Shown here in pieces: positions 6,808 to 21,108 of a stretch of 21,108 nucleotides of DNA (position 1 is its first letter; every line of letters starts with the position of its first letter). The notes under the pieces are model-generated. The model was not told the DNA's origin. It was given only the letters and a program-made list of their open reading frames with translations, and did no database searches. Made by a program: the position numbers and the translations under genes. The DNA is taken from positions 1 to 21,108 of IMG/VR virus record IMGVR_UViG_3300017751_000309; one strand, written 5' to 3'. This DNA is from a virus.

Positions 6808-7386
6808 ATGAGAGAAAAAGATTTAAAAGAAGGTTTAGGCGAATTAGCTGATAGAGCTGAGCAAGACCACGAAGTACAAATGGCACGTGCCGAGTTATAC
6901 AAGGCCGCTAAGTATTCAATTAAACTACACGATATGCTTAAAGGTGTAAGTGAAGCAGAAGGCTTAGAAGGCTGGGTACAAGCAAAGATTACGAAAGCCG
7001 CAGACTATTTAAGTTCTGTTTATCATCACATGGATTACCAAGAAGCTGACGATAGTGCAATGGCTCCTGATGCACTAGATAGTATTTCAAGTGGTAAAGA
7101 TGAAGTTGGTGAAGGCAAAGGTAAAAGCAACAAACAAAAAGCTGCTATTGCAATTGCTAAGAAAGAAAAAGGCTACAAAGAATCATTAGCAGACAGATTA
7201 TCTGAAGCTGTTGCTATATGCGACGAGTGCGGTAACCCAAGTTATAAAACATTAGGGTTATCAGAAGATGAATTATCTGAAGTAGCTGGTCCTGAAAAGT
7301 GTTGGAAAGGCTACAAAAGAGCTGGAACACAAAAAGGCACTGGCAAGAACGCAGGCAAACGTGTTAATAAGTGCGTAAAGGCCTAA
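6808..7386 (+). CDS. Conserved T4-like marine phage late protein with Cys-paired tail
   Basis: 192 residues. The N-terminal 70 residues form a helical domain (LADRAEQDHEVQMARAELY, then AAKYSIKLHDMLKGVSEAE and EGWVQAKITKAADYL) that I recognise as well conserved in T4-like marine phages. A lysine-rich linker follows (about 105-125), then a CDEC pair (C138, C141) and a basic C-terminal module KCWKGYKRAG ending VNKCVKA (C165, C189). The start resembles a prohead protease site, DLKE|G at residues 5-9. It has its own late promoter and good Shine-Dalgarno, so expression should be late and strong. Function is unknown; a virion or internal capsid role is inferred. Confidence 0.75.
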   Translation: MREKDLKEGLGELADRAEQDHEVQMARAELYKAAKYSIKLHDMLKGVSEAEGLEGWVQAKITKAADYLSSVYHHMDYQEADDSAMAPDALDSISSGKDEVGEGKGKSNKQKAAIAIAKKEKGYKESLADRLSEAVAICDECGNPSYKTLGLSEDELSEVAGPEKCWKGYKRAGTQKGTGKNAGKRVNKCVKA

Positions 7387-8285: not shown

Positions 8286-8315
8286 AGTATATAAATTACT
8301 AAAGGAGATCCTCAT

Positions 8316-8576
8316 ATGGGAAGTCGTGTATTCGGTGCCGATGAAAAGGCAAAATTAGAAAGACTAGTAAATGAAGGCGTAACAGTCTATCAAGAAGTAG
8401 AAGACCTTACAGCAGGTCTAAAAGATACAGTTAAGGCTGTAGCTGAAGAACTTGACATTAAGCCAAGTTTAATTAACAAAGCAATTAAAATTGCACAAAA
8501 AGGTGACTGGGAAAGAGTTTCCGATGAGTTTGACGATCTTGAAACATTGGTCGTAACTGTCGGTAAGGACAAATAA
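8316..8576 (+). CDS. dsbA: DsbA-like double-stranded DNA-binding protein
   Basis: 86 residues, close to the 89 of T4 DsbA. Mostly helical, with FGADEKAKLERLVNEGV, then VKAVAEELDIKPSLINKAIKIA and a C-terminal DDLETLVVTVG. This pattern is what marine T4-like phages carry as the DsbA double-stranded DNA-binding protein. In T4 that small protein binds DNA at late promoters. The LxIKPSLINKAI segment looks like a DNA-contacting helix pair. The assignment rests on length, helix pattern and context rather than on a catalytic motif. It has a perfect sigma70 promoter and a strong Shine-Dalgarno and heads the run into the polymerase gene. Confidence 0.65.
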   Translation: MGSRVFGADEKAKLERLVNEGVTVYQEVEDLTAGLKDTVKAVAEELDIKPSLINKAIKIAQKGDWERVSDEFDDLETLVVTVGKDK

Positions 8577-8855
8577 GTGCAAGGGATTAAAGACTTTTAT
8601 AGAGATAGTCTCACCTCAGACCCGGTTGCACACTATGCAGAGATGATAGGTGCTGTTAGTGTTATTATAGGTAGCTCTATATTAACATGGACTGTACTCA
8701 CTCCAAGACCAGATATCTTCATACCGTTCTATTTTGTAGGAAGTTGTGCAAGTTTCTTTGGAGCATATAGACGTGGACTACCTTGGGTATTAGTACTCAC
8801 TGGTTGGTTCATTATTATGAACATCATAGCTCTTAGTAGACTATATATTATATAA
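8577..8855 (+). CDS. Small integral membrane protein, three predicted helices
   Basis: 92 residues from a GTG directly after the dsbA stop; AAGGAC about eight bases upstream serves as ribosome binding site. After a polar start (FYRDSLTSDPVAHYAEM) there are hydrophobic segments at about 24-42, 48-63 and 70-90, separated by short loops, one with YRRG on the presumed cytoplasmic side. There is no signal peptide cleavage site. It is probably in the inner membrane. Function is unknown; it is co-transcribed with dsbA and the polymerase gene. Confidence 0.65.
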   Translation: MQGIKDFYRDSLTSDPVAHYAEMIGAVSVIIGSSILTWTVLTPRPDIFIPFYFVGSCASFFGAYRRGLPWVLVLTGWFIIMNIIALSRLYII

Positions 8856-8890
8856 CGCCAATAGCAATAGCTAGGCATGTAGAAGGTTAA

Positions 8891-8906
8891 GTTGGCCATA
8901 AGCAAC
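8891..8906 (+). promoter_or_regulatory. Possible hairpin operator just before the polymerase ribosome binding site
   Basis: GTTG, an 8-base loop, then CAAC, lying immediately before TAGGAG (8908-8913) and the polymerase ATG at 8919. T4 gp43 represses its own translation by binding a small hairpin with an 8-base loop at this same place. The stem here is only four pairs and the loop differs from T4, so this is tentative. Confidence 0.3.
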
Positions 8907-8918
8907 GTAGGAGAATGA

Positions 8919-11591
8919 ATGAGTTATGTAGACGCAATGTTTGATCGCGACTCTGATATTATCAGAGTAGTTGAACGCAAAGACGGTAAAAGAGAATACC
9001 GCGAGTACAACGCAAAGTATACGTTTTACTTTAAAGACCAACGTGGCAAATACAAAAGTGTGTATGGCGATCCGCTAACACGTATTGTATGTAAGAACAC
9101 AAAAGACTTTAGAAAAGAAGTTGCTATTAACCGCGACAAAGATCTTTTCGAAAGCGACATCAATCCAATATTCCAATGTTTAAGTGAAAACTATCTTAAC
9201 CAAGATGGTCCTAAGATGAATATTGCATTCTTTGATATTGAGACAGACTTTGATCCTGAGAAAGGCTTTGCTGATCCTAGTGATCCGTTTATGCCTATTA
9301 CTTCTATATCTGTATACTTACAGTGGATGGAAACCATGGTGTGTCTTGCTGTTCCGCCTAAGACACTTACAATGGATCAAGCAAAAGCAGAACTTGAAGG
9401 CATTGAAAATGTAATGTTATTTGAAAAAGAAGGTGACATGATTGACACTTTCTTAACGCTAATTGAAGACGCTGATATTTTATCAGGTTGGAACAGTGAA
9501 GGTTATGATATTCCGTATACTGTAAACAGAACAAGTCGTGTACTAAGCAAAGATGATACACGCAGATTCTGCTTGTGGGGCCAATTGCCTAAGAAGCGTG
9601 AATATGAAAAGTATGGCAAGACAGCACAAACATTTGACTTAGTAGGTAGAGTACACTTAGATAGTTTAAACTTGTATCGTAAGTACACATATGAAGAACG
9701 TCATACATATCGACTAGATGCTATTGGTGAAATCGAAGTAGGCGAAAACAAAGTGCCATATGAAGGCACACTAGATCAACTGTATAACAATGACTTCCGT
9801 AAGTTTATTGAATATAACATACAAGATACAGCACTACTTGACAAACTAGACAAGAAACTACGCTTTATTGATCTATCAAATACTGTTGCACATGAAAACA
9901 CAGTGCTGTTACAAACAACTATGGGTGCTGTTGCTGTTACAGAACAAGGCATTGTTAACGAAGCACACAACAGAGGCCTACAAGTTCCTAATCGTAAAAG
10001 ACGCGACGACACTGAGAATACACAAGCGGCTGGTGCGTATGTTGCATTTCCAAAGAAAGGCTTGCACAAATGGGTAGCGTCAATGGATTTGAATTCACTG
10101 TATCCTAGTGTTATTCGTGCATTGAATATGGCACCTGAAACTATCATAGGACAGATACGTCCTGAGATATCAGAAGCCCGTGTGCATGAAGATATGACTC
10201 TTAAGAAAAAGTCATTTGCAGGTAGTTGGGAAGGACGTTTTGCAACAGAAGAATACGATGCTGTTATGGAACAACGTAAAGATATTCCTCTTACAGTTGA
10301 TTTTGAAGGCGGACAAACAGAAGTAATGAGTGGTGCTGAAATATACAAACTTATATTTGACTCACACAATCCTTGGATGCTTAGTTCGAATGGTACAATC
10401 TTTACACAGGAGTATGAAGGTGTTATTCCAGGACTACTAAAGCGTTGGTATGCTGAACGTAAAGACATGCAGGCACAACTTAAAAAAGCAAAAGATGCCG
10501 GCAATGCTGTTGAAATTGAATATTGGGATAAAAGACAGTTAGTTAAAAAGATTAACTTGAACAGTCTGTATGGTGCTATTCTTAATCCTGGTTGTAGATT
10601 CTTTGATAAACGTATTGGACAATCGACAACACTAACAGGACGTAGTATTGTTAAGCATATGTCAGCAGAAGTAAACAATTGTATCACAGGTGAATATGAT
10701 CATGTCGGTAAGGCAATGATATATGGCGATACTGACTCTTGTTACTTTAGTGCTTGGCCTATGCTAAAAGATGACGTCGAAAGCGGAAAACTTGAATGGT
10801 CTAAAGAAAAGTGTATTGCACTTATGGATCAGGTATGCGAACAAGCAAATACAACATTTGCAAAGTTTATGGCAGACGCATTTCATTGTCCAAAGTCACG
10901 TAGTGATGTTATTGCGGCAGGACGTGAAATTATTGCACAGTCGGGCTTGTATATTACTAAGAAGCGTTATGCGGCACTAGTAATTGATAACGAAGGCTTT
11001 AGAACAGACCTAGACGGTAAAGCAGGCAAGGTAAAGGCAATGGGCTTAGACTTGCGTAGATCAGACACACCTGTGTTTATGCAGGAGTTTCTAAGTGAAA
11101 TCTTGCTTATGGTACTTACTGATATTCCGCAAGCAGATGTTTTGCAACGTATTACAGAGTTCCGTAAGGAGTTTGAAAATCGTCCTGGTTATGAAAAAGG
11201 ATCTCCTAAACGTGCTAACAAAGTAGGACACTACAAACGTTTAGAAGAAAAGCAAGGCAAGGCAAATATGCCAGGTCATGTACGGGCAAGCATTAACTGG
11301 AATACGCTAAAGCGTATGAACGGAGACAAATACTCGCAAGAGATTGTTGACGGTATGAAAGTTATTGTTTGTAAATTAAAACAGAATCCGCTGGGTTACA
11401 CAAGTGTTGCGTATCCAACAGATGAATTACGTATTCCGGAATGGTTTAAAGAACTACCATTCGATGATTCAGCAATGGCGGAGACTATTATTGATAACAA
11501 ACTAGACAACTTGATTGGTGTGCTAAACTATCCATTAGAAGATACTAAGCAACATAATACATTTAGTAGTTTGTTTGATTTCGGAGAATAA
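8919..11591 (+). CDS. 43: Family B DNA polymerase, T4 gp43 type
   Basis: 890 residues, close to the 898 of T4 gp43, apparently complete and unsplit. The proofreading exonuclease motifs are present: FFDIET (D106, E108), WNSEGYDIP (D197) and YNIQDTALLD (D303). The polymerase motifs follow: DLNSLYPS (D390, motif A), KKINLNSLYGA (543-553, motif B) and YGDTDS (D604, D606, motif C). All catalytic residues are intact, so an active replicative polymerase with 3'-5' proofreading is expected, working with the clamp encoded at 13416. The ATG follows TAGGAG at good spacing. Unlike in some cyanophages and T4 relatives, I see no intron or split in the gene. Confidence 0.97.
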   Translation: MSYVDAMFDRDSDIIRVVERKDGKREYREYNAKYTFYFKDQRGKYKSVYGDPLTRIVCKNTKDFRKEVAINRDKDLFESDINPIFQCLSENYLNQDGPKMNIAFFDIETDFDPEKGFADPSDPFMPITSISVYLQWMETMVCLAVPPKTLTMDQAKAELEGIENVMLFEKEGDMIDTFLTLIEDADILSGWNSEGYDIPYTVNRTSRVLSKDDTRRFCLWGQLPKKREYEKYGKTAQTFDLVGRVHLDSLNLYRKYTYEERHTYRLDAIGEIEVGENKVPYEGTLDQLYNNDFRKFIEYNIQDTALLDKLDKKLRFIDLSNTVAHENTVLLQTTMGAVAVTEQGIVNEAHNRGLQVPNRKRRDDTENTQAAGAYVAFPKKGLHKWVASMDLNSLYPSVIRALNMAPETIIGQIRPEISEARVHEDMTLKKKSFAGSWEGRFATEEYDAVMEQRKDIPLTVDFEGGQTEVMSGAEIYKLIFDSHNPWMLSSNGTIFTQEYEGVIPGLLKRWYAERKDMQAQLKKAKDAGNAVEIEYWDKRQLVKKINLNSLYGAILNPGCRFFDKRIGQSTTLTGRSIVKHMSAEVNNCITGEYDHVGKAMIYGDTDSCYFSAWPMLKDDVESGKLEWSKEKCIALMDQVCEQANTTFAKFMADAFHCPKSRSDVIAAGREIIAQSGLYITKKRYAALVIDNEGFRTDLDGKAGKVKAMGLDLRRSDTPVFMQEFLSEILLMVLTDIPQADVLQRITEFRKEFENRPGYEKGSPKRANKVGHYKRLEEKQGKANMPGHVRASINWNTLKRMNGDKYSQEIVDGMKVIVCKLKQNPLGYTSVAYPTDELRIPEWFKELPFDDSAMAETIIDNKLDNLIGVLNYPLEDTKQHNTFSSLFDFGE

Positions 11592-11592
11592 T

Positions 11593-11706
11593 ATGAAAAT
11601 TAAGATGGAAGTGGAAATAGATACTGATAACAATCAAGACCTAAATACCATTGAAGAATTAATTGCAATGCTAAGAAACTTAGCAGAAAACTATTACGAG
11701 GAGTAA
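11593..11706 (+). CDS. Very small acidic protein of unknown function
   Basis: 37 residues, filling the space between the polymerase stop and the ATG at 11711. The polymerase end contains CGGAG, a usable Shine-Dalgarno, eight bases before this ATG. The product is acidic with a short beta-like start (MKIKMEVEID) and a helix (NTIEELIAMLRNLAENYYEE). The helix ends in GAG GAG codons that also serve as a ribosome binding site for the next gene. Reality is supported by position and signals only. Confidence 0.55.
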   Translation: MKIKMEVEIDTDNNQDLNTIEELIAMLRNLAENYYEE

Positions 11707-11710
11707 TATA

Positions 11711-11893
11711 ATGTGGACATTAGTATTTGTATACTTTTATGATGCAACGCCTTACGTTGAGCATGTAAGTACCCATACTAATATGGTAGAGTGTTTCCAA
11801 GCAAGAGAAGCATTAAGTGAAAATCATGGCAAAGGCGGAGGTTACTTTAAACCTGAACAGCAAGCTCTTTGTATTAACATGAACGAAAGTTAA
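11711..11893 (+). CDS. Small conserved phage protein of unknown function
   Basis: 60 residues starting MWTLVFVYFYD, with a central VECFQAREAL helix, a glycine-rich loop (GKGGGYF) and an end QALCINMNES. I associate this pattern with small proteins in T4-like phages. The first 12 residues are hydrophobic but too short for a membrane helix. GAGGAG upstream gives a good ribosome binding site. No function is known to me. Confidence 0.6.
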   Translation: MWTLVFVYFYDATPYVEHVSTHTNMVECFQAREALSENHGKGGGYFKPEQQALCINMNES

Positions 11894-11903
11894 AGGATGA
11901 TAA

Positions 11904-12233
11904 ATGAAATACAGTGAATGGGATATTGGCGGCGATGAAGTTAAAAACGATGATCGCTACATTGTAAAAGATAATACATTATTAAATAACTTGGTAGTAA
12001 GCAGTACAATGTTATCAGCTCATAAAAGTACAACTGGACATCGACATGCCGGGCAAGAAGAAGTATATATGTTTGTCAGCGGCAGTGGCCAGATGGAACT
12101 TGATCATAAAATATTTGATGTTACAGCAGGTGATACTGTACTAATTGAGGACAATGTATTCCACAGAGTACATAATAATACAGACTTTGGTTTAAAGTTT
12201 ATTTGTGTATTTGACGGTGGGAGGAATCACTAA
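11904..12233 (+). CDS. Cupin-fold protein, possible sugar-modifying enzyme
   Basis: 109 residues forming a single cupin barrel. Motif 1 is TTGHRHAGQEEVYMFVSGSG (about 43-62) with the two His and Glu metal ligands. Motif 2 is GDTVLIEDNVFHRVHN (about 77-92) with a fourth His. Metal ligands appear intact, so a metal-dependent isomerase, epimerase or dioxygenase or a small-molecule binder is possible. It is the first of three overlapping genes (cupin, TagD-like cytidylyltransferase, epimerase), which favours work on a sugar or polyol. AAAGGATG precedes the ATG; the stop overlaps the next start. Confidence 0.75.
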   Translation: MKYSEWDIGGDEVKNDDRYIVKDNTLLNNLVVSSTMLSAHKSTTGHRHAGQEEVYMFVSGSGQMELDHKIFDVTAGDTVLIEDNVFHRVHNNTDFGLKFICVFDGGRNH

Positions 12234-12649
12234 TGAAAGTAGGATTTACATGTAGTGCATTTGACTTACTTCACGCAGGACACGTACAAATGTTACGTGA
12301 AGCAAAAGAACAATGTGATTATCTCATATGCGGTCTGCAGGTTGATCCTAGTAATGATCGTAAAGATAAAAACTCTCCTATACAAACAGTAGTTGAGCGT
12401 TACACACAATTAAAAGCTGTAAGTTATGTAGATGAAATTATTCCTTATGGTACTGAAAAAGACCTTGAGGATATACTAGAATTATACACTATTAATGTAA
12501 GAATTCTAGGAGAGGAATATAGAGACAAAGAGTTTACAGGCAAAGATATATGTCGTAGACGTGATATAGAATTGTATTTTAACAATAGAGATCACAGATT
12601 TAGTAGCTCATACTTACGAGAAAGCGTTATAGAATCGGAAAAGCGATGA
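12233..12649 (+). CDS. Glycerol-3-phosphate cytidylyltransferase-like protein (TagD family)
   Basis: 138 residues, the family's usual size. MKVGFTCSAFDLLHAGHVQML shows the HxGH motif (HAGH at about 15-18), and RFSSSYLR near residues 122-129 takes the place of the RTSGISTT-type second motif. Family members transfer CMP from CTP to glycerol-3-phosphate, or use related nucleotides with other alcohol phosphates; the substrate here is not determined. A short strand-loop-helix core is intact, with no truncation. It overlaps the cupin gene by one base and the epimerase gene by four, so the three are translated together. CDP-glycerol or another CDP-activated group is the best guess. Confidence 0.8.
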   Translation: MKVGFTCSAFDLLHAGHVQMLREAKEQCDYLICGLQVDPSNDRKDKNSPIQTVVERYTQLKAVSYVDEIIPYGTEKDLEDILELYTINVRILGEEYRDKEFTGKDICRRRDIELYFNNRDHRFSSSYLRESVIESEKR

Positions 12650-13419
12650 ATATATTACTAACAGGTTCAAGTGGCTTTATAGGAAGTGAACTACTAAAGC
12701 GTTTAACACTAAAGTATGGACACAATGTACATACAATTGATATTGCTAATGGTGTAGAACAAGACTTAATGTTTTGTCAGTTTCCAAAAGAATCTACAAT
12801 TGATTTAGTAATACACTTAGCAGGTAAAAGCGGTGTACGTGAAAGCATCAAAGACCCTGCTAGTTATTGGTTAAACAACATCGAAGCAAGTAAACGCTTG
12901 TTTAATGCTTTCCCTGACACAAGAGTGCTTTATGCAAGCTCTAGTAGCGCATATGAGCCCGATTTAAACCCTTATGCGGCGTCTAAGTATTGCTTAGAAG
13001 AACTAGCAAGTCGTTACCCTAACACACTAGGTATGCGCTTTCATACAGTATATTCAGACATATGTCCTAGAAAGAATATGTTCTTTCAAAGACTACGCAA
13101 TGATACACTAGAATATGCTACTAGGCATTATAGAGACTTTGTTCATTTACAAGACTTGTTAGATGCTATTGATATACTAATAGCAAAAGTCAATGTAAAT
13201 GGAATAATTGATATAGGTACAGGAGCACCTGTACGTATTCAAGACCTTGCACCAAATGTACCCGTTCGCCTAAATACACCTGGAGAACGTGAATATACTT
13301 GTGCAAACACAGAAAAAATTAAAGCGTTAGGTTGGAAACCTAAATACTTTATAGAAAACTTCTTGACAAAAGAAGATAAAGGCAATATAATAAACATTAT
13401 AAACGGAGAACCCATATGA
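12646..13419 (+). CDS. NAD-dependent epimerase/dehydratase, short form
   Basis: 257 residues. The Rossmann glycine motif GSSGFIG (7-13) at the N-terminus and the catalytic YAASK (Y110, K114) with an upstream Ser cluster (YASSSSAY, 96-103) identify an extended short-chain dehydrogenase of nucleotide-sugar type. It is shorter than usual (about 310-340), with a reduced substrate-binding C-terminal lobe, but the active site is complete. It probably acts on an activated sugar made by the neighbouring cytidylyltransferase or the host. The gene overlaps its upstream neighbour by four bases. Its 3' end contains the promoter of the clamp gene. Confidence 0.82.
   Translation: MNILLTGSSGFIGSELLKRLTLKYGHNVHTIDIANGVEQDLMFCQFPKESTIDLVIHLAGKSGVRESIKDPASYWLNNIEASKRLFNAFPDTRVLYASSSSAYEPDLNPYAASKYCLEELASRYPNTLGMRFHTVYSDICPRKNMFFQRLRNDTLEYATRHYRDFVHLQDLLDAIDILIAKVNVNGIIDIGTGAPVRIQDLAPNVPVRLNTPGEREYTCANTEKIKALGWKPKYFIENFLTKEDKGNIINIINGEPI
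13363..13391 (+). promoter_or_regulatory. Consensus sigma70 promoter for the sliding clamp gene
   Basis: TTGACA at 13363-13368, 17-base spacer, TATAAT at 13386-13391, a perfect match, embedded in the last codons of the epimerase gene. Initiation is expected near 13398, then CGGAG at about 13404-13408 and the ATG at 13416. Confidence 0.88.
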
Positions 13420-14144
13420 AAGATATTTTACAAGACATTGTCGCTCACACACATGCACTAGGCTTTTTAAGTTTAGTAAAAGTAACAAGCGATACAGACA
13501 CAACAGTTGAAAGCATGGCTGAAGATAGATCTGTTATTTTAACAGCATCAACAAATAATCCTGTTGCAGAGTTTACAGGTACATTTGGTATGCCTAACTT
13601 AGATAAACTAAGTTTGCATTTAAAGAATCCTGAGTATCAGAAAGATGCTAAGATTGATGTAATACAAGCAGACCGTAATGGAGAAACTATTCCAACGCAC
13701 ATTCACTTTGAAAATGCGGCAGGTGACTTTGAAAATGATTATCGCTTTATGAACAAAGCAATCATTGAAGAAAAACTTAAGACTGTTAAGTTTAAAGGCG
13801 CACAATGGAACGTAGAGATTACTCCAAGCATGGCTAGTATTGCACGTATGAAACTAATGAGTGCGGCACATTCAGAAGAGCCTACATTTAATGTAAAGAC
13901 TACTGATGGTAACTTAGTGTTTAGTTTTGGTGATGCAAGTACACACGCAGGTGAGTTTGTATTCCAACACGGAATTGAAGGATCGCTACAACACCAATGG
14001 AGTTGGCCTGTAGCACAAGTACAAAGCGTCTTAAACTTAGACGGCGATGTAACAATGAGCATTAGTGATCAAGGTGCTATGATGATTAGTGTAGATAGTG
14101 GTATGGTCAAGTATGATTATATCTTACCAGCACAAAGTAAGTAA
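13416..14144 (+). CDS. 45: Probable sliding clamp (DNA polymerase processivity factor, gp45 type)
   Basis: 242 residues, near the 228 of T4 gp45. The chain alternates beta strands and amphipathic helices as in PCNA-like clamps: an N-terminal helix (DILQDIVAHTHAL), FGMPNLDKLSLHLKNPEY (about 57-74), a repeat of the fold after about residue 115, and a C-terminal strand block ending VDSGMVKYDYILPAQ. I recognise it as the divergent clamp variant of marine T4-like phages. It would encircle DNA and tether the polymerase encoded at 8919. Its own consensus promoter suggests high early expression, suitable for a stoichiometric replication factor. A non-clamp beta-rich protein is the alternative. Confidence 0.65.
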   Translation: MKDILQDIVAHTHALGFLSLVKVTSDTDTTVESMAEDRSVILTASTNNPVAEFTGTFGMPNLDKLSLHLKNPEYQKDAKIDVIQADRNGETIPTHIHFENAAGDFENDYRFMNKAIIEEKLKTVKFKGAQWNVEITPSMASIARMKLMSAAHSEEPTFNVKTTDGNLVFSFGDASTHAGEFVFQHGIEGSLQHQWSWPVAQVQSVLNLDGDVTMSISDQGAMMISVDSGMVKYDYILPAQSK

Positions 14145-14161
14145 AAAGAAAGAAATGTTTA

Positions 14162-14452
14162 ATGACGAGTTTTATTATTGATTGGTGGAATGTTATAATG
14201 GATAGTGATAAGAATCCATTATCTAACATTAAGGATCTAAGAGTCCGTCACATGGTGATGCAAATACTAGCATGGATGTGGTGTATTGCATTTACAGCAA
14301 TGACTGGTACTTGGATGTACTTGGGTGCTAACATACTAATACACACATTACTATTAGGTGCTGTATGTATAACAGTAGCAACATTTGAAGCTGCTAAACG
14401 CAAGCCTCAAATCTTTTACACATTACGTGGCAAAGGTGGCGAGCATGAGTGA
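14162..14452 (+). CDS. Small membrane protein, two predicted helices
   Basis: 96 residues. Residues 1-30 are polar and amphipathic (with IKDLRVRHMVMQ), followed by hydrophobic segments at about 34-53 and 57-76, then a basic tail (AAKRKPQIFYTLRGKGGEHE). It is probably an inner membrane protein with a cytoplasmic basic tail. The ribosome binding site is weak (AAAGAAA). The gene overlaps the next start by eight bases. Function is not recognised; the pair of small membrane proteins precedes the DNA-modification block. Confidence 0.6.
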   Translation: MTSFIIDWWNVIMDSDKNPLSNIKDLRVRHMVMQILAWMWCIAFTAMTGTWMYLGANILIHTLLLGAVCITVATFEAAKRKPQIFYTLRGKGGEHE

Positions 14453-14585
14453 TCCAAACAAACCGTATCACAATAAAGGCGCAGGACTAGCGTTCTTTAT
14501 TATTGCAGTAACAATGATTGGTGTGCCAGTTGTAATCGGAACATCAATGGGATGGTTTAACTTGTTTGGCATACTAGGACTATAG
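14445..14585 (+). CDS. Very small membrane protein, one predicted helix
   Basis: 46 residues from the ATG at 14445, preceded by GGTGGCGAG. An earlier in-frame ATG at 14385 lies deep in the upstream gene and is unlikely. After a polar start (MSDPNKPYHNKGAG) residues about 15-46 are hydrophobic with glycine breaks, probably one long or two short helices. It overlaps the upstream membrane-protein gene, so the two may be made together and interact. Function unknown. Confidence 0.6.
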   Translation: MSDPNKPYHNKGAGLAFFIIAVTMIGVPVVIGTSMGWFNLFGILGL

Positions 14586-14593
14586 GAAAATAA

Positions 14594-16132
14594 ATGAACA
14601 AAGATTTAACAGCAACACAAAATGATTATGCAACGTTCTTGCCTGCACTAAGCGGCTTTTATGCAACTTATGTAGGTAAGCAACGGTATGACGAGTATGT
14701 TGATAAGAATCGTGTTCCAAGTAACTTTGCTAATGGTGTTGAGAGTTTAAATTATCTTAATAAGAACGAAGGACAGTTTACATATAAATGGAGTTTGTAT
14801 TCAGCTGGACATGCTGACTTAGATACAACTAAGGTTGTTCCTAAAGAAGATATGGTTCGAAATAGAGATAGAGAAAACACTTGGCTACTAGGAGACTCAG
14901 GAGGTTTCCAAATTGGTAAAGGTGTTTGGGAAGGCGATTGGAAAGATATCAATTGTCCTAAAGCACAAAAGAAACGTGACGGCGTTCTCCGTTGGATGGA
15001 TGCTTATATGGACTATGGCATGGTACTTGATATTCCGGCTTGGGTAGCACGTTCGCCCGAAGGAGCAAAAGCAACAGGCATTAGCACATACCAAGAAGCT
15101 GTTAAAGCAACACGTATTAATAATGACTATTGGATGAAGCATAGAACAGGTGCTTGTAAATTGTTAAATGTTTTGCAAGGTGAGAATCATGCAGATGCAG
15201 ATGACTGGTACGAGCAGATGAAAGACTATTGCGATCCTAACATATACCCAGATAAGCATTTTAATGGTTGGTCAATGGGTGGTCAGAACATGTGTGATGT
15301 GCATTTGGTTCTTAAACGTATAGTTGCATTAAGGTATGACGGACTATTGGAGCAAGGCATACACGATGTAATGCACTTCTTAGGCACATCTAAACTAGAA
15401 TGGGCTACATTACTAACAGACATACAAAGAGCTGTTCGTAAGTATCATAACCCAAACTTTATGATTACATTTGATTGTGCTAGTCCTTTTCTTGCTACAG
15501 CAAACGGACAAATTTACATTCAAACTGAAACTGAAGATAGATCTAAATGGGTGTATCGAATGGTTCCAAGTGTAGACGATAAGAAGTATGCATCTGATAC
15601 CCGTGGTTTTAGAGATGCTGTATTACAAGATAACATTTTTAAGAACTTTACTGATAGCCCACTTAGTACCGGACTTAAAGTAAATGACATTTGTCACTAT
15701 GCACCAGGTATGCTAAACAAAATTGGTAAAGAAGGCAAGACTAGTTGGGATAGTTTTTCATATGCTATCCAAATGGGTCATAATGTATGGAGTCATATTA
15801 ATGCTGTTCAAGAAGCAAACAGACAATATGATGCAGGAATCATTCCAAATATGCTTGTACAAGAAAAGTTTGATAGGGTTCTATTTAGAGATGTTGTAGA
15901 AGCAATATTTGCGGCAGATGGTCGTGAAGAAGCAAATGCAATTATAGAAGAGTATAGTCGTTTTTGGATGACTATACCAGGTACTAGAGGTGCTGTTGGT
16001 AAGAAGACTGTAAACAGTAGCACTTATTTTGGTAGCTTGTTCGAAGAAGTAGAACAAGAAACTACTATTACAGACGAAGAAGACCTTGATGAAACTAAAT
16101 TAGAGGTATTAGAGGATGAGCAACTTTACTAA
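14594..16132 (+). CDS. dpdA: DpdA-type DNA transglycosylase (tRNA-guanine transglycosylase homologue)
   Basis: 512 residues. The TGT TIM-barrel signatures appear in order: LLGDSGGFQIGKG (D101, matching the general-acid Asp of bacterial TGT), VLDIPAW (145-150), LNVLQGEN (191-198, the VQGG strand), FNGWSMGGQ (223-231), HFLGTSKL (261-268) and MITFDCASP (290-298) with D294 in the place of the nucleophilic Asp. The CxCxxC...H zinc site of bacterial TGT is not visible, and the C-terminus beyond about 300 is unlike TGT, ending in an acidic tail. Phage DpdA exchanges guanine in DNA for a 7-deazaguanine. Its presence near a T-fold protein and FolE supports this over tRNA modification, though the substrate is inferred. 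It overlaps the following gene. Confidence 0.85.
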   Translation: MNKDLTATQNDYATFLPALSGFYATYVGKQRYDEYVDKNRVPSNFANGVESLNYLNKNEGQFTYKWSLYSAGHADLDTTKVVPKEDMVRNRDRENTWLLGDSGGFQIGKGVWEGDWKDINCPKAQKKRDGVLRWMDAYMDYGMVLDIPAWVARSPEGAKATGISTYQEAVKATRINNDYWMKHRTGACKLLNVLQGENHADADDWYEQMKDYCDPNIYPDKHFNGWSMGGQNMCDVHLVLKRIVALRYDGLLEQGIHDVMHFLGTSKLEWATLLTDIQRAVRKYHNPNFMITFDCASPFLATANGQIYIQTETEDRSKWVYRMVPSVDDKKYASDTRGFRDAVLQDNIFKNFTDSPLSTGLKVNDICHYAPGMLNKIGKEGKTSWDSFSYAIQMGHNVWSHINAVQEANRQYDAGIIPNMLVQEKFDRVLFRDVVEAIFAADGREEANAIIEEYSRFWMTIPGTRGAVGKKTVNSSTYFGSLFEEVEQETTITDEEDLDETKLEVLEDEQLY

Positions 16133-16316
16133 TGAACACAATAAAATAGCAGGCTATTTACAAGAATTATACAAAAAGCACAGGACACTTGACGAAGAAA
16201 TAAAAGTGTTGTATAATACATTTGCAAGCGACGGTGAAATTAATAGATTAAAAACAAAAAAACTTTGGTTTAAAGACGAAATACATAGACTAGAAACAAG
16301 GCTATCATCATTATGA
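16116..16316 (+). CDS. DUF465/YdcH-like small coiled-coil protein
   Basis: 66 residues, highly charged and helical throughout, with the DUF465-type pattern EHNKIAGYLQELYKKH then SDGEINRLKTKKLWFKDEIHRLE. The LKxKKLxxKDEI stretch is the family's best-conserved part. It overlaps the dpdA end by 17 bases and the next gene by four. No function is established for the family to my knowledge. The gene contains a promoter for its downstream neighbour, so its own transcription comes from upstream. Confidence 0.7.
   Translation: MSNFTNEHNKIAGYLQELYKKHRTLDEEIKVLYNTFASDGEINRLKTKKLWFKDEIHRLETRLSSL
16189..16217 (+). promoter_or_regulatory. Near-consensus sigma70 promoter inside the DUF465-like gene
   Basis: TTGACG at 16189-16194, 17-base spacer, TATAAT at 16212-16217. 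One mismatch in the -35 box, perfect -10. Initiation near 16224 would leave an 89-base leader to the ATG at 16313 and bypass dpdA and the coiled-coil gene. Confidence 0.65.
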
Positions 16317-16834
16317 AACGAGATTACGACACAGGCGAAGCAAACGACATTACTTTGTTTACAGGCGTAGAAGTTGAAAAGACTCCTGCGTTTGGAATGA
16401 AAACATTATTTGTTACAGGCATACAAGACTATAATAAGATCATAAAGTTCTACAAAGAAGAACAATGTGAACATATCTTCTTTGGTGCCAATCACAGTTA
16501 CAAGCCTGTTACTTCAGATGAATTTGAAGATTGGGATCTAATGATCCGTGCGTTTACAGATCAAGGTATACTATGTAGCCTAGACATTCCGAGTAACATT
16601 AACTTAGAATGGTTCTTAGACGGCGGACTAGTTGAAAGTGATTACTTTATTCCACAAATACGTGTTGTAGTACCTTATGTTAAACAGTGGAACTATAATA
16701 CAATGGTTAAAATTGATGACAAAGACTTTAAAGCAAGTAACCCAGGTGTTTGGTGTCATAGCCTACACGACTTAATGGATAGAGAAAAATTTACTGATTG
16801 GAGTAAATATTCACTTGACAAACCTTTAGAATGA
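16313..16834 (+). CDS. Conserved phage protein beside dpdA, function unknown
   Basis: 173 residues, alpha/beta in character. Distinct segments are RDYDTGEANDITLFTGVEVEKTP near the start, TLFVTGI (about 31-37), HIFFGANHSY (about 54-63), a SLDIPSNINLEWF strand-turn (about 89-101), IPQIRVVVPYVKQWNYNTMVKIDD (split across 114-138) and NPGVWCHSLHDL (143-154). I recall similar proteins in marine T4-like phages but no function. There is no CxxxCxxC, so it is not QueE. It lies between the DUF465-like gene and the T-fold gene with its own promoter, which makes a role in base modification possible but unproven. Confidence 0.65.
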   Translation: MKRDYDTGEANDITLFTGVEVEKTPAFGMKTLFVTGIQDYNKIIKFYKEEQCEHIFFGANHSYKPVTSDEFEDWDLMIRAFTDQGILCSLDIPSNINLEWFLDGGLVESDYFIPQIRVVVPYVKQWNYNTMVKIDDKDFKASNPGVWCHSLHDLMDREKFTDWSKYSLDKPLE

Positions 16835-16843
16835 AAGTATACT
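16815..16843 (+). promoter_or_regulatory. Near-consensus sigma70 promoter for the T-fold gene
   Basis: TTGACA at 16815-16820, 17-base spacer, TATACT at 16838-16843. Initiation is expected at about 16850, which argues that the ATG at 16850 is not the start and that the ATG at 16907, behind AGAGGAAGAG, is. Confidence 0.75.
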
Positions 16844-16906
16844 AATACTATGCAAGAACGCTATTACGATTATATGCTAAGGCGCTACAGAGAGGAAGAG
16901 AATAAA

Positions 16907-17317
16907 ATGGAAGATACACTAAATAATGCACAACGAAGTATATGGGTAACCTTTAATAAAGAAGGTGTCCATAAGTATCCAGGAGCAGATAGTGATCCAA
17001 AATTGGCAACAGGTGATTGGGACGATGTGTCGTTTCTTGGTATTATGCACCGTCATATCTTTCACTTCCGGGTGCGCATTGAAGTGTTCCACAACGATAG
17101 GGACATCGAATTCATCCAATTTAAGCGATGGCTTGAAAGATTATATCAAAACATTGACAGTAACACGTCAGTGCTTGATCTAGATTACAAGAGCTGTGAG
17201 ATGATCGCAGATGACTTGTATACTCAAATCTCTAACAAATACCCCGGCCGGTTTGTAGAGATCAGCGTTGCAGAAGACAACGAAAACGGCTGTTCAATTT
17301 ACTACCCTAAATCTTAA
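16907..17317 (+). CDS. Divergent tunnelling-fold protein, QueD/PTPS-like
   Basis: 136 residues from the ATG at 16907, chosen because it follows a strong Shine-Dalgarno (AGAGGAAGAG) and because transcription probably begins near 16850, where an earlier in-frame ATG lies. The pattern follows 6-pyruvoyl/6-carboxy-tetrahydropterin synthases: VTFNKEGVHKYP with H22, then MHRHIFHFRVRIEV with H48 and H50 (the three zinc ligands), DIEFIQFKRWL (the VMDFxxLK helix), a helix SCEMIADDLYTQI and SVAEDNENGCSIYY with E123. The catalytic Cys normally just before the HxH is absent. QueD makes a 7-deazaguanine precursor; this one may be a diverged or non-catalytic relative. GC content is higher than its neighbours. 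Confidence 0.6.
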   Translation: MEDTLNNAQRSIWVTFNKEGVHKYPGADSDPKLATGDWDDVSFLGIMHRHIFHFRVRIEVFHNDRDIEFIQFKRWLERLYQNIDSNTSVLDLDYKSCEMIADDLYTQISNKYPGRFVEISVAEDNENGCSIYYPKS

Positions 17318-17344
17318 AGTGCTATTAATAGAGGATATTAAAAA

Positions 17345-17578
17345 ATGGCAATCGACTTTAATAAGCCGGCTTATGACAAAATTTTTCGAGACTTGGAAAA
17401 CTTCAAAGATTTTTGTCGCTACGTTGGTGACGCTAAAAACGTGGCTTTTTCATTCAATGAAAAAGATTTGTACAACGATCGCTCTTACGTATGGCGTTCA
17501 TACCAAAGGCATGTTAACCACCTTAAGGCAAAAAATCGCTCTTCAGGTAAAAACTATAACAACAAACGGAGATACTAA
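17345..17578 (+). CDS. Small basic conserved phage protein
   Basis: 77 residues. An N-terminal helix (YDKIFRDLENFKDFCRYVG), a short FNEKDLYNDRSYVWRSYQRHV segment and a basic tail (KAKNRSSGKNYNNKRRY). I recognise the FxxDLExFxxFCR ... FNEKDLYN pattern from T4-like phages of marine bacteria; no function is known to me. The basic tail suggests nucleic-acid contact, which is inference. AGAGGA about ten bases before the ATG is its ribosome binding site, and its stop overlaps the glycosyltransferase start. Confidence 0.65.
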   Translation: MAIDFNKPAYDKIFRDLENFKDFCRYVGDAKNVAFSFNEKDLYNDRSYVWRSYQRHVNHLKAKNRSSGKNYNNKRRY

Positions 17579-18639
17579 TGACTATTCATATTGTAGATAT
17601 TGAGGCTGTAGATACACGCTACACTAAGCAATGGAAAGAGTATCTTCCAAAGCAACTCAAGAGATTTACAAATGAAAATGTAAACGTCATTAGTGGCGGG
17701 GATACACCTCAGGCAACTACGCCTGGGGCGTTCCTTAACTTTGGTGGTACTAATGTTTATAAAAGCAAACAACTAGAACAAATAGGCGAAATGTTTTGTA
17801 ATGGTAAAGTATCAAATGGCGATTACTTTCTATATACAGATGCATGGAATCCTACTGTCGTACAATTAAAGTATATGGCAGAACTACTAGGTGTTGAGAT
17901 TACTGTTGGTGGCTTATGGCATGCAGGGTCTTATGATCCGCAAGACTTCTTAGGCAGACTTATAGGTAATAAACCTTGGGTTAGACATGCTGAAATGTCA
18001 ATGTTTGAATGTTATGATGATAACTTCTTTGCTACGGACTTTCATATTGATATGTTTACAGATGTATTTGACGAAGACTATGCAATAGACTATGACAAAA
18101 TAAGTCGTGTAGGATGGCCTATGGAGTATCTAAAGGATAGCTTAACTAGCTACAAAGGTATGGAAAAGCGTAACCTTATACTATTTCCACATAGAGTTGC
18201 TCCAGAAAAACAAGTTGATATTTTTAACGACTTAGCACAACAGCTACCAGAATATGAGTTTGTTGTTTGTCAAGAACGTGAACTTACAAAGAACGAATAC
18301 CATAACTTACTAGGTGAAGCAAAGATGGTGTTTAGTGCTAACCTACAAGAAACACTAGGTATTAGTTGGTATGAAGGCGCACTAGTTGACGCTATTCCAA
18401 TGATGCCTGATAGACTTAGTTACAGTGAAATGGCATTACCTGAATTTAAATATCCTAGTAAATGGACTGAAGACTATACAACATATAGAAAGCATCGAGG
18501 TGAAGTTGTTGACAAGATACGTAACTATATGGAAAACTATAGCGACTATTTGGTTAGTTTGCAAAAACAACGTCAAGCACTTAACAAAGATTTTTTCAGT
18601 GGTAGTGCTCTATATGAGAGGATTAAGGATGGGAGATAA
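17578..18639 (+). CDS. GT-B fold glycosyltransferase (GT4-like)
   Basis: 353 residues in two lobes. The N-terminal lobe holds FLNFGGTNVYKSKQ, DYFLYTDAWNP and GGLWHAGSYDP (about 53-120). The C-terminal lobe holds NLILFPHRVAPEKQ (199-212, with the Arg/Lys donor-phosphate contacts) and ETLGISWYE (258-266), the E-x7-E motif of GT4-type enzymes. It transfers a sugar from a nucleotide donor in the cytoplasm; the acceptor is unknown. In T4-like phages such enzymes may glycosylate modified DNA bases or surface structures. Location in the same part of the genome as dpdA and folE makes DNA the more interesting candidate, but that is inference. It starts by ATGA-type overlap with the gene before. Confidence 0.8.
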   Translation: MTIHIVDIEAVDTRYTKQWKEYLPKQLKRFTNENVNVISGGDTPQATTPGAFLNFGGTNVYKSKQLEQIGEMFCNGKVSNGDYFLYTDAWNPTVVQLKYMAELLGVEITVGGLWHAGSYDPQDFLGRLIGNKPWVRHAEMSMFECYDDNFFATDFHIDMFTDVFDEDYAIDYDKISRVGWPMEYLKDSLTSYKGMEKRNLILFPHRVAPEKQVDIFNDLAQQLPEYEFVVCQERELTKNEYHNLLGEAKMVFSANLQETLGISWYEGALVDAIPMMPDRLSYSEMALPEFKYPSKWTEDYTTYRKHRGEVVDKIRNYMENYSDYLVSLQKQRQALNKDFFSGSALYERIKDGR

Positions 18640-18982
18640 TTTTAATTATTCATTTAGTGGCGATGATAGTAGTACTATTACTATAGACACAAGTTCTTGG
18701 GATGATAGTTTTACTACTAGTCCTTCATCTATATATACTAATGACTCGTTTACATTTACAAATGCGTTAGACGGAAAATACGGTCTTTCTGTTGAAGGTG
18801 ATTTAAAAGTAGATGGCATAGACGTTATGCAATCTATTAAAGATATACAACGTGTACTAGGTGTTGTAGGTAGAGATATTGAGAAAGAAGAAAAGTATGC
18901 AGGCCTAAAACGTGCCGCAGAAGCATATGAACGTGAACTAGCAAAGATTGAAACTTTTGAAGCACTGAAAGAGAGTAAATAA
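18629..18982 (+). CDS. Small phage protein with virion-like C-terminal segment
   Basis: 117 residues from the ATG at 18629, which overlaps the glycosyltransferase end by 11 bases and follows GAGAGGATTAAGG. Upstream in-frame ATGs lie inside the glycosyltransferase. The N-terminal half is low-complexity, rich in Ser, Thr, Asp and Phe. Then LSVEGDLKVDGIDVMQSIKDIQRVL (split at about 53-77) resembles a short strand plus helix module seen in T4-like phage structural proteins, followed by a charged helix with YAGLKRAAEAYEREL. Function unknown; possibly a virion or chaperone-like protein in an otherwise metabolic block. Confidence 0.6.
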   Translation: MGDNFNYSFSGDDSSTITIDTSSWDDSFTTSPSSIYTNDSFTFTNALDGKYGLSVEGDLKVDGIDVMQSIKDIQRVLGVVGRDIEKEEKYAGLKRAAEAYERELAKIETFEALKESK

Positions 18983-19446
18983 TGTTTGGGTTTTTAAAAG
19001 GTCGTAAACGTGTAATTAAAGATAGAGATAGTAACGAGCCTTACTTGGTTCGTTGGTACTTGTTCCTAAAGGATAGAAAGAACTTTCCGTTTAATGTCAC
19101 TTTACACAAAGTCTTAAAAAGCGACGAAGCAACATTACACGATCATCCTTGGAGTTATGCAACACTTATACTTAAAGGTGGTTATTGGGAGAATGTACCT
19201 GTTGTTAGTAAAGAAGGTAACATAGTAGGTTCACATGGTATTTGGCGTGGGCCAGGTCATTTTAGATTTCGTAAAGCAGATGATCTACATTTCTTAACAC
19301 TTGAGAAAGACGCTAACGGAAAAGAAATACCGTGCTGGAGTTTGTTCTATATGGGCAAGAAAGCACAGGCATGGGGCTTTGTACCGTTTGTACAAGGCAT
19401 TGGTTATAGATGGCAAAATAGCGAAGATTACCTCGCTAAGGAGTAA
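18982..19446 (+). CDS. Cupin-like protein of unknown activity
   Basis: 154 residues. The core is LHDHPWSYATLILKGGYWE (about 52-70), a cupin-type first motif with HDH and a later Glu as likely metal ligands, then GPGHFRFRKADDLHFLTL with further His residues (about 90-108). The N-terminus is short and basic. The HDHPWSY..L.GGYWE pattern is known to me from small phage and bacterial cupins of unassigned function. It shares the A of its ATG with the upstream stop (TAATG). An isomerase, hydroxylase or binding role is possible. Confidence 0.7.
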   Translation: MFGFLKGRKRVIKDRDSNEPYLVRWYLFLKDRKNFPFNVTLHKVLKSDEATLHDHPWSYATLILKGGYWENVPVVSKEGNIVGSHGIWRGPGHFRFRKADDLHFLTLEKDANGKEIPCWSLFYMGKKAQAWGFVPFVQGIGYRWQNSEDYLAKE

Positions 19447-19452
19447 AGTAAA

Positions 19453-19719
19453 ATGAGCGAATTTGACGAAGAAGTTGAAAATCAAAGGTTGAAGCTAGAA
19501 GCAATAGAATGGGCTAGTAAAGTTAAGTCGGTTCATGCACATAGTCTTACATCGTTATGGTATGAAACAAACCCTGAAGACATTGAGCAAGGTGGCGTTG
19601 TAGATGTTGAATATAACAGCGGTATCATTGAACGTACTTTAAAAAACGGTACGAAAAGAACAATTGGTAAAGTGCTTTCAGAAGATGAATTAGTTTACGA
19701 ATATACAAGGAAAACATAA
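19453..19719 (+). CDS. Small protein of unknown function
   Basis: 88 residues. A charged N-terminal helix (EFDEEVENQRLKLEAIEWASKV) is followed by a beta-rich half (VVDVEYNSGIIERTLKNGTKRTIG, split) that could form a small SH3-like barrel. No Cys, no membrane segment, no enzyme motif. AAGGAGTAAAGTAAA upstream is the ribosome binding site, overlapping the end of the cupin gene. AAGGAAA in its own 3' end serves the next gene. Confidence 0.6.
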   Translation: MSEFDEEVENQRLKLEAIEWASKVKSVHAHSLTSLWYETNPEDIEQGGVVDVEYNSGIIERTLKNGTKRTIGKVLSEDELVYEYTRKT

Positions 19720-19723
19720 TACT

Positions 19724-20284
19724 ATGATTAAGAAACATTATTACAGTTGGCGTCATGTTGAAAAAATGTGTATAGATATTTCTATGCAGATGCAAAAAGA
19801 TAATTGGAAGCCTGACTATATTGTAGGTATTACAAGAGGTGGAAACATTCCTGCAAGTATTCTTAGTCACATGCTAGGTGTACGTTGCGAAGCTGTTAAA
19901 ATTAGTTTACGTGATGACGATAGTGAAAGCGAAAGTAATACTTGGATGTCAGCTGATGCATTTGGTTACGTAGACGAAGATGAGCGTGGCACTTATAAAA
20001 GTCGCTGGGATATAGCTAAACGTAAAAATATACTTGTAGTTGATGATATAAACGACTCGGGTAATACACTTAACTGGTTACAACAAGATTGGATGAAGAG
20101 TTGCTTACCTGATGAATCATCATGGAGTACTGTTTGGGGTCGCAATGTAAGATTTGCTACACTAACTGAAAATCTTGCAAGTACGTTTCATGGTGTACAA
20201 TATTCTGCACATGAAGTTAACAAAGCAGAAGATGATGTTTGGTTAGTTTACCCTTGGGAAATAGTAGGTAAGTATGACGCTTGA
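19724..20284 (+). CDS. Type I phosphoribosyltransferase
   Basis: 186 residues. YIVGITRGGNIPASILSHML (32-51) is the PPi-binding loop region, a flexible hood segment rich in Asp and Ser follows (62-90), and ILVVDDINDSGNT (103-115) is the PRPP motif with D107 and D108. This is the purine/xanthine phosphoribosyltransferase fold: base plus PRPP gives nucleotide plus pyrophosphate. The base used cannot be told. In a phage it would serve salvage of host purines, or possibly handling of a modified base, which is speculation. It overlaps the HIT gene by 11 bases, so the two are translated together. Confidence 0.85.
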   Translation: MIKKHYYSWRHVEKMCIDISMQMQKDNWKPDYIVGITRGGNIPASILSHMLGVRCEAVKISLRDDDSESESNTWMSADAFGYVDEDERGTYKSRWDIAKRKNILVVDDINDSGNTLNWLQQDWMKSCLPDESSWSTVWGRNVRFATLTENLASTFHGVQYSAHEVNKAEDDVWLVYPWEIVGKYDA

Positions 20285-20648
20285 TACATTAGAACAAGCT
20301 CAGCAAGAAGGCAGAGCACCATGGGATAACGTATACTTAGATACTAGAGACTTTGTAGTATACGAAGACAAGTATCCTGTAACTGAAGGACATTTGTTAG
20401 TAGTACCCAAAGTAAATGTTATGGATTGTGTAGAAAAATGTTTTAAGTTTGCTATGTCAATGGGAAACGATAATGTTACAACAACCAAGAATAACGTTAC
20501 TGGTTATAATATTGGCCTAAATATAGGTACTAGTGCGGGACAAACAGTAATGTATCCGCATGTACATTTAATCTTCCGTCGTGATGGAGACATGGAAGAT
20601 CCGAAAGGTGGCGTACGAGGCGTCATTCCATCTAAACAAAAATACTAA
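20274..20648 (+). CDS. HIT-family nucleotide hydrolase
   Basis: 124 residues. The order matches Ap4A-hydrolase-like HIT proteins: DTRDFVVYEDKYPVTEGHLLVVPK near 23-46, NIGTSAGQT (83-91), the histidine motif YPHVHLI (94-100) and GDMEDPKGGVRGVIP at 105-119. In the H-x-H-x-H-xx motif the second (nucleophilic) and third His are kept as H96 and H98, and the first is Tyr94. Family enzymes cleave dinucleoside polyphosphates or nucleoside phosphoramidates. Coupled to the phosphoribosyltransferase, it suggests nucleotide housekeeping or clearing of alarmone-like dinucleotides. Confidence 0.83.
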   Translation: MTLDTLEQAQQEGRAPWDNVYLDTRDFVVYEDKYPVTEGHLLVVPKVNVMDCVEKCFKFAMSMGNDNVTTTKNNVTGYNIGLNIGTSAGQTVMYPHVHLIFRRDGDMEDPKGGVRGVIPSKQKY

Positions 20649-20661
20649 AAGGAAAGGAACT

Positions 20662-20868
20662 ATGGACTTGAAGGAACAAATGATTAAAGCGGCAAGACTA
20701 CACGCTGAAGCGGAAATAGAATTGCATAAGACTAACGTCGAAGTTTACATGCAAAAAGTTGTAGGCATTGGAGAACACTCTGATATCATTGAAACAATTC
20801 AAAAAGAATTAGATGCAATGGCTACAGCACATGATCGTCTTGATATGTTAAACACATATTTTGTATAA
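20662..20868 (+). CDS. Small conserved phage protein of unknown function
   Basis: 68 residues from the ATG at 20662, chosen over an earlier in-frame ATG at 20581 because that lies in the HIT gene and AAAGGAAAGGA precedes this one. The product is helical: KEQMIKAARLHAEAEIELHK, then VYMQKVVGIGEHSDIIETIQKELDAM and a C-terminal LDMLNTYF. The VGIGEHSDIxETIxKELD stretch is familiar from T4-like marine phages. No function is known to me. It closes the operon before the folE promoter. Confidence 0.7.
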   Translation: MDLKEQMIKAARLHAEAEIELHKTNVEVYMQKVVGIGEHSDIIETIQKELDAMATAHDRLDMLNTYFV

Positions 20869-20873
20869 CATAC

Positions 20874-20902
20874 TTGACAAAAACCTAAATACAATGTATA
20901 AT
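20874..20902 (+). promoter_or_regulatory. Consensus sigma70 promoter for the folE-like gene
   Basis: TTGACA at 20874-20879, 17-base spacer, TATAAT at 20897-20902, a perfect match. Initiation near 20909 gives a leader of about 59 bases containing a small GGCA/TGCC hairpin (20933-20946) before CGGAG at 20954-20958 and the ATG at 20968. Confidence 0.9.
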
Positions 20903-20967
20903 GTAAGTTATATTGTGCATTGTATTATTAACGGCAATCCACTGCCTAAACATCGGAGATTAAAAAA

Positions 20968-21108
20968 ATGGATAAATCCAAAGAAATAAAAGCCCGTTTG
21001 CAATCAGCAGACAAACGCTTCTGGGCCGGCGACAACATTTCAGACTTTATTAAAGACGGCGAAAAGCAAGTACTAATTGACGAGCTTGCTGTTAAGTTTG
21101 AAGACGTA
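20968..21108 (+). CDS. folE: Probable GTP cyclohydrolase I (FolE), N-terminal 47 residues only
   Basis: The frame runs off the window end. The visible part (KARLQSADKRFWAGDNIS, then DFIKDGEKQVLIDELAVKFEDV) resembles the N-terminal helices of phage GTP cyclohydrolase I proteins as I remember them; no catalytic residue is in view, so the call is tentative. FolE converts GTP to dihydroneopterin triphosphate, the first step toward 7-deazaguanines such as preQ0 and also toward folate. Its GC content is clearly above that of the surrounding genes. Perfect promoter and good ribosome binding site suggest strong early expression. Confidence 0.55.
   Translation, partial: MDKSKEIKARLQSADKRFWAGDNISDFIKDGEKQVLIDELAVKFEDV

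Follow-up and report, generated by a model that had tools for sequence, protein, structure and literature searches.

The window analysed here, the 21,108-base virus record IMGVR_UViG_3300017751_000309 of IMG/VR, carries a gene module around a DpdA-like DNA-guanine transglycosylase (14594..16132, + strand) that very probably modifies phage DNA with a 7-deazaguanine. For the module as a whole we lean, with somewhat better than even confidence, towards 7-deazaguanine hypermodification with built-in glycosylation, a glycosyltransferase (GT) encoded among the synthesis genes being the candidate enzyme for decorating the inserted base. Gene content, catalytic residues and conserved linkage are the observations behind this reading, together with a predicted tRNA-guanine transglycosylase (TGT) fold; the steps beyond that fold are offered as a proposal.

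In the proposed scheme, 7-carboxy-7-deazaguanine (CDG) would be made by FolE, QueE and a QueD whose gene lies elsewhere in the genome; for the window phage itself a QueD is presumed. A T-fold-like protein lacking the catalytic cysteine of QueD would process or deliver the base, CDG decarboxylation being our best guess by analogy to DpdL, a CDG decarboxylase. DpdA would exchange guanine in replicated DNA for the 7-deaza base, a xanthine/guanine-type phosphoribosyltransferase may salvage the released guanine, and the GT4-type glycosyltransferase would attach a sugar to the base once it is in the DNA, drawing on sugar-nucleotide enzymes that differ among relatives.

If this is true, a purine in the DNA of such phages would bear a sugar both bulky and variable, as cytosine does in T4. 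The scheme would work like T4 hydroxymethylcytosine glucosylation by alpha- and beta-glucosyltransferases, in which a base is modified and then sugar-decorated in DNA; however, the T4 acceptor is cytosine and the acceptor proposed here is a purine inserted after replication, so that the likeness is one of working only. We know of no earlier example of a glycosylated purine base in DNA, and a limited literature search brought up no account of a glycosylated 7-deazaguanine as a DNA base. 7-Deazaguanine DNA modification shields phage DNA from restriction (PMC6884629). Because viral contigs often carry members of the DpdA family, with at least 597 relatives of the window protein in IMG/VR, the modification could be widespread and under-described.

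Predicted fold and relatives of the DpdA-like protein

The 512-residue protein carries its catalytic aspartates within DSGGFQ (D101) and TFDCASP (D294), where the motifs of E. coli Tgt have D89 and D264. Both are invariant in two alignments of 20 and 24 proteins. An AlphaFold2 model built from 24 diverse sequences (predicted local distance difference test score, pLDDT, 81) was compared with the PDB using Foldseek, and all 50 matches listed were tRNA-guanine transglycosylases (best E 9.6e-8); VIA Z was 18.8 for a bacterial, 18.6 for a mouse and 18.3 for an archaeal TGT. A preliminary description of this DNA had read the open reading frame (ORF) as a TGT-fold protein with both catalytic Asp, and the model bears this out; it had proposed a structure search against DpdA subfamilies.

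It is the predicted structure, not the sequence, that settles the identity as a TGT. The protein itself had no match in Pfam, PHROG, NCBIfam or PDB sequence searches, TGT was not found when sets of its homologues were compared with the same four collections, and 2 of 20 aligned members matched the unnamed phrog_10773. In single-sequence scans the DpdA of PAC2 and X1 gave no matches and that of ACP17 matched itself only. Profile comparison by hhalign with the single E. coli Tgt sequence was weak (22%), setting FDCASP on FDCVMP. The match to a DpdA2-type set reached 97% over residues 101–296 with D101 and D294 in register, at 17–18% identity only to the DpdA2-type proteins of ACP17 and X1. Modules of the nt-1 type, represented by Va3_013, which we take to be an nt-1 type DpdA2, have DSGG(F/L)Q and the second Asp motif in common with the window; unlike the window module, Va3 has annotated QueC and QueF and no GT match. 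By sequence, the window protein is not recognisable as a DpdA1 of the 9g type, similarity being undetectable (hhalign probability 0.1% for the DpdA profile against the single 9g sequence; DSGAFS in 9g versus DSGGFQ). Relatives of the window DpdA occur in PA5oct-like Pseudomonas phages (36%), Sinorhizobium phage Phosso (27%) and Vibrio phage 2.275.O (34% over residues 4–223).

Conservation of the neighbourhood was followed in two sets of IMG/VR loci. The near set comprises the best 80 of the at least 597 relatives, and the distant set 80 loci whose DpdA is 36–52% identical to that of PAC2; distant counts out of 40 refer to loci with at least 6 kb downstream, and two loci ending right after dpdA with no DpdA ORF call (L174, L179) were left out of these counts and of those under distance limits. 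PAC2 itself (PA5oct-like, Wroclawvirus) resembles the window in having DpdA (36%), GT (44%), the T-fold-like protein (52%), QueE and the phosphoribosyltransferase in one block, but its FolE and QueD genes are some 54 kb distant and its counterpart of the conserved protein U173 some 28 kb. A published overview credits PA5oct with a deazaguanine synthesis and incorporation system and, in its accessible part, does not mention glycosylation of that system's product.

Upstream of dpdA lies a probable T4-type sliding clamp gene (13416..14144, +) with a homologue in PAC2, where the gene preceding dpdA is annotated as proliferating cell nuclear antigen; the clamp is present in 39/40 distant loci. This neighbour bears on the possibility that the module modifies tRNA in a queuosine-like manner during infection, not DNA. 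The fold cannot separate the two activities, because bacterial, mouse and archaeal TGTs match about equally, and the tRNA explanation draws on just this equal match to bacterial, archaeal and eukaryotic enzymes (Z 18–19). However, the window protein lacks CxCxxC, the zinc motif of TGTs that E. coli Tgt has, and its gene is a neighbour of the clamp gene. The same neighbourhood, in reverse order, exists in phage 9g, where DpdA acts on DNA (PMC6884629). We consider action on tRNA highly improbable and infer that DpdA acts on DNA. The 9g/CAjan module, made up of DpdA1, Gat-QueC, FolE, QueD and QueE, is alike in having dpdA between clamp and FolE, and genes for DNA polymerase and for making the 7-deazaguanine are close by; in 9g it is transcribed in reverse order relative to the window module. 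The 9g cluster contains Gat-QueC and QueD, whereas the window has no QueC seen and instead the Cys-less T-fold-like protein, U173 and the GT, to whose profile 9g has no match.

Linkage of a glycosyltransferase to DpdA

The gene at 17578..18639 (+), absent from the preliminary description, encodes a GT4-type glycosyltransferase of 353 residues with an EX7E motif (E258...E266), a mark of retaining GT4-like enzymes. Of 22 family members, 18 have E and 4 have D at position 258, and all 22 have E at position 266. Pfam Glycos_transf_1 matches 12 of the 22 (best 3.4e-7), the window GT itself not being among them.

All 55 near loci that are long enough have the GT no more than 5 kb from the dpdA start, and among the 34 near loci with 7.5 kb downstream U173, the T-fold-like protein, the GT, the phosphoribosyltransferase and QueE are all present in 34/34. 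Distant loci retain the GT in 40/40, likewise 40/40 under stricter distance limits. Among phage records, all 19 that carry the GT also encode, at whatever distance in the genome, a DpdA-type protein, 16 found by tblastn with the window DpdA and three of DpdA2 type; four of the tblastn matches are weak (E 3e-3; Ep032 and three PhiXhv phages), PhiXhv-12 alone being confirmed by profile (6.4e-7). Independent cases matter here because shared descent of one genome region could explain the linkage, and the 19 records, which include near-identical phages, represent about five lineages as judged by eye. In Phosso the GT, T-fold-like protein, FolE and QueE stand together about 170 kb from dpdA; in ACP17 and X1 the same four accompany a DpdA2-type enzyme. 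PhiXhv-12 has a distant GT (25%) adjoining Gat-QueC (PF06508, 2.3e-49), a PIG-L deacetylase and an oxidoreductase. Its protein annotated as L-glutamine-D-fructose-6-phosphate aminotransferase (L092:5669-7192) is, by Pfam, the Gat-QueC fusion.

A GT-profile scan of cellular genome contigs gave 19 loci. The GT is near DpdA or FolE in 18 of them and near DpdA in 17 (16 by the window-type profile, plus L220), and a T-fold-like gene is present in 14. L220 pairs the GT and T-fold-like protein with a DpdA1-like protein (28% to 9g DpdA); L207 has GT and FolE and L219 the GT only, both on contigs below 5 kb. The GT thus occurs with at least three DpdA types, not four, because the PhiXhv DpdA is a distant relative of the window type. 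Four loci (L204–L206 and L222) have the order clamp–DpdA–U173–T-fold–GT and have the appearance of phage contigs placed in the bins of other organisms; the first three come from Neomarinimicrobiota, Euryarchaeota and Pacearchaeota genome bins. The contigs that hold the GT loci of Devosia, Rhizobiales, Azospirillum, Methylobacterium, Aurantimonas and Magnetospirillum range in length from 17 kb to 1.4 Mb. The alphaproteobacterial loci L208–L217 form small DpdA and GT clusters with a T-fold-like protein, QueD or a Vut_1/YhhQ-like transporter. Near L208 Pfam identifies a phage-type integrase gene, and near L210, L212, L213 and L215 one is suggested by the look of the sequence only; the GT–DpdA pair in these genomes is perhaps carried on integrative elements.

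Two genes upstream of the clamp could supply a sugar nucleotide, a cytidylyltransferase-like enzyme (12233..12649, +; Pfam CTP_transf_like 2.1e-13) and an NAD-dependent epimerase/dehydratase (12646..13419, +; Pfam Epimerase 1.8e-22). An epimerase, UDP-glucose-type dehydrogenase, oxidoreductase or nucleotidyltransferase lies near the module in 19/39 distant and 39/46 near loci, and such variable sugar genes around a constant GT would fit a diversified DNA decoration.

From the linkage we hold glycosylation of the 7-deazaguanine base to be the function of the GT with a confidence that ranges from evenly balanced to slightly favorable. The alternative is that the DNA contains plain CDG or 7-deazaguanine and that the GT acts elsewhere, on host surface sugars or a virion protein, the genes being linked by descent. 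T-fold-like genes without a GT match in phiST, RHph_I1_18, Ahp1 and Bakedbeans speak for it, as do cyanophage sugar gene clusters thought to alter outer polysaccharides (PMC7824862). However, descent within one phage lineage is insufficient, because phages unrelated to one another, as well as alphaproteobacterial contigs, have the GT–DpdA pair, the DpdA being of at least three types, and we regard a plain base as unlikely, if still deserving some weight.

Beyond the T-fold-like genes just named, several further points weigh against base glycosylation. The linkage in IMG/VR may be much owed to shared ancestry of one genome region, and Vibrio phage 2.275.O, with a DpdA of the window type, has no GT match; it carries QueC and an annotated QueF. 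None of the sugar-nucleotide genes of the kinds sought was found in 20/39 distant loci, and phages, including T4-like ones, carry sugar genes for other uses (PMC7824862). The weakest point is chemical: if the T-fold-like protein is a decarboxylase, its product would have no obvious handle for a sugar. The X1 gene after FolE is annotated as belonging to the 3′-phosphoadenosine-5′-phosphosulfate (PAPS) reductase family and possibly encodes a QueC-like ATPase. Finally, in the alphaproteobacterial loci L208–L212, which carry the Vut_1/YhhQ-like transporter, the profiles of FolE, QueE and QueD had no match. Because of this combination the base may be imported there, and since five Magnetospirillum loci (four assemblies) have QueD, the base may differ among carriers while the GT stays.

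The wider picture, in which abundant phages carry sugared 7-deazaguanine with swapped sugar enzymes, the T-fold-like protein and U173 are new enzymes and the GT–DpdA pair has moved into alphaproteobacteria, seems to us as apt to be wrong as right. Carriers of the GT are available in culture, namely Acidovorax phage ACP17, Xanthomonas phage X1 and PA5oct-like phages, some of which have been grown on P. aeruginosa PAO1; this puts the idea within reach of mass spectrometry.

Base synthesis and the probable product

The last gene, 47 codons from 20968 to 21108 (+) cut by the window end, is the start of folE (GTP cyclohydrolase I). Its reading was extended with the contig L001, which matches window positions 8314–21108 at 99.7–99.9% identity in two blocks and continues beyond the window end with a complete FolE followed directly by QueE. 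The 47 residues are identical to the start of the L001 FolE (229 aa), in agreement with the earlier FolE-like assignment, and QueE (298 aa, L001:13022-13918) is next. In NCBIfam the best match has E 2.7e-40 for FolE and 1.3e-11 for QueE, both below the curated cut-offs. FolE is present in 33/34 and QueE in 34/34 near loci with 7.5 kb downstream, and within set distances downstream in 26/33 and 25/33 distant loci. In the alignment of the window family (A11) about 50 inserted residues separate the third cluster Cys of QueE from the first two (C31-x3-C35-x50-C86), whereas the QueE of ACP17 and 9g have CxxxCxxC.

The preliminary description had expected queE and queC just after position 21108 or in the host, and preQ0 as the end product. 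As read through L001, queE is indeed just downstream, and no queC was found in that contig. Among 32 related IMG/VR contigs surveyed (20 plus 12; 15–358 kb, many of them fragments), QueC exceeded the cut-off in 1 (1/20 and 0/12, L001 being among those without), and one further contig of the 20 had a match below it; PAC2 and Phosso had no QueC match. A single absence says little because the contigs may be fragments; taken together, the absences suggest that the phage's own pathway usually ends at CDG. Since QueC is found in only 1/32 contigs, the product is likely CDG or a derivative and not preQ0. The version in which preQ0 is made and inserted with a host QueC draws on PMC6884629, according to which the majority of the hosts of such phages have genes for the queuosine pathway. 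Against this stand 1/32 contigs with QueC versus 14/32 with QueD (5/20 plus 9/12) and the Cys-less T-fold-like protein kept instead, and we judge preQ0 improbable.

This protein (16850..17317, +; phrog_17812) is a candidate enzyme acting on the QueE product. Three histidines, H41, H67 and H69, are invariant in 16 and in 19 aligned proteins, and C116-E117 and E142 also occur in every aligned row. The T-fold assignment is suggested by the order of these motifs and by a weak local profile match to QueD (hhalign 14.5%; its SCE and E regions line up); Pfam PTPS was not matched in 16 members. Bacterioferritins, which appeared in a PDB profile search at E 0.5 to 0.9 only, were disregarded as relatives. 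Of the earlier description of a T-fold protein with three zinc-ligand histidines, the conservation of the histidines stands firmly, and the fold itself is more tentative.

Its proposed identity as QueD was rejected. The aligned QueDs carry CxxxHG, with the catalytic Cys four residues before HGH/HGY, and by motif spacing this position is Leu (L63) in all rows of both alignments (16/16 in A4, 19/19 in A9); usable QueDs came from 7 of 10 loci, 6 of which were aligned, the other three seemingly lying on the opposite strand. A separate PTPS/QueD is also encoded in many relatives, namely the 14 contigs above and all 6 isolate genomes searched. No QueD was found in L001 or among the window proteins scanned. 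ACP17, phiST (T-fold homologue 28%) and RHph_I1_18 have a T-fold-like gene near FolE plus a separate QueD, with QueE too in ACP17 and phiST. The T-fold-like gene lies within 4 kb of the dpdA start in all 63 near loci long enough and is present in 39/40 distant loci (39/47 under stricter distance limits).

Other genes of the module and the window

A purine-type phosphoribosyltransferase is encoded at 19724..20284 (+; Pfam Pribosyltran 2.9e-15), with VVDDINDSG as its motif for phosphoribosyl pyrophosphate. It matches a xanthine phosphoribosyltransferase model at 1e-12, below the model's cut-off, and occurs in 29/40 distant loci (26/36 under stricter distance limits). The enzyme could convert the 7-deaza base to a nucleotide for incorporation by the polymerase, and its presence in 34/34 near loci is consistent with this; however, it is rarer in distant loci and the transglycosylase would then be superfluous, so we give this route scarcely any credence. 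Salvage of the guanine released by DpdA is the role proposed above.

U173 (16313..16834, +) is conserved in 77/80 near and 37/40 distant loci (46/51 distant under stricter distance limits). Its AlphaFold2 model (pLDDT 84) had no fold match in the PDB at E ≤ 0.001, and in BFVD only the ACP17 homologue stood out (E 1.7e-3). Its interpretation as a degenerate QueE was dropped: one QueE chain at Z 5.9 stood among unrelated folds of equal level, a viral QueE reached E 0.36 and hhalign gave 8%.

Between the genes of the T-fold-like protein and the GT lies that of u77, a small fast-evolving protein (17345..17578, +) identified by tblastn and profile. It was found in 71/80 near loci by tblastn and, among distant loci, in 5/40 by single-sequence search and 28/80 by profile. 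Of the other small ORFs of the window, the single-sequence search of the 40 distant loci found u66 in 4 and neither u117 nor u88 in any. Three interleaved proteins had been flagged in the preliminary description as possible pathway members; the one at 16313 (U173) proved to belong to the core, that at 17345 (u77) is conserved yet fast-evolving, and that at 18629 was found in 0/40 distant loci. A HIT-domain protein (20274..20648, +; Pfam HIT 1.7e-8) is less conserved (12/40 distant loci).

Further upstream, positions 8919-11591 encode a homologue of the PAC2 DNA polymerase, which is annotated as T4 gp43-like, and from the polymerase and clamp homologues the window phage looks T4-like. L001 is without 334 bases of the window (11898–12231), the site of a cupin gene (at 11904). 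Three otherwise unlike proteins encoded at 3158-3751, 5060-6256 and 6808-7386 have similar short basic C-terminal tails with two Cys each, possibly a common C-terminal tag.

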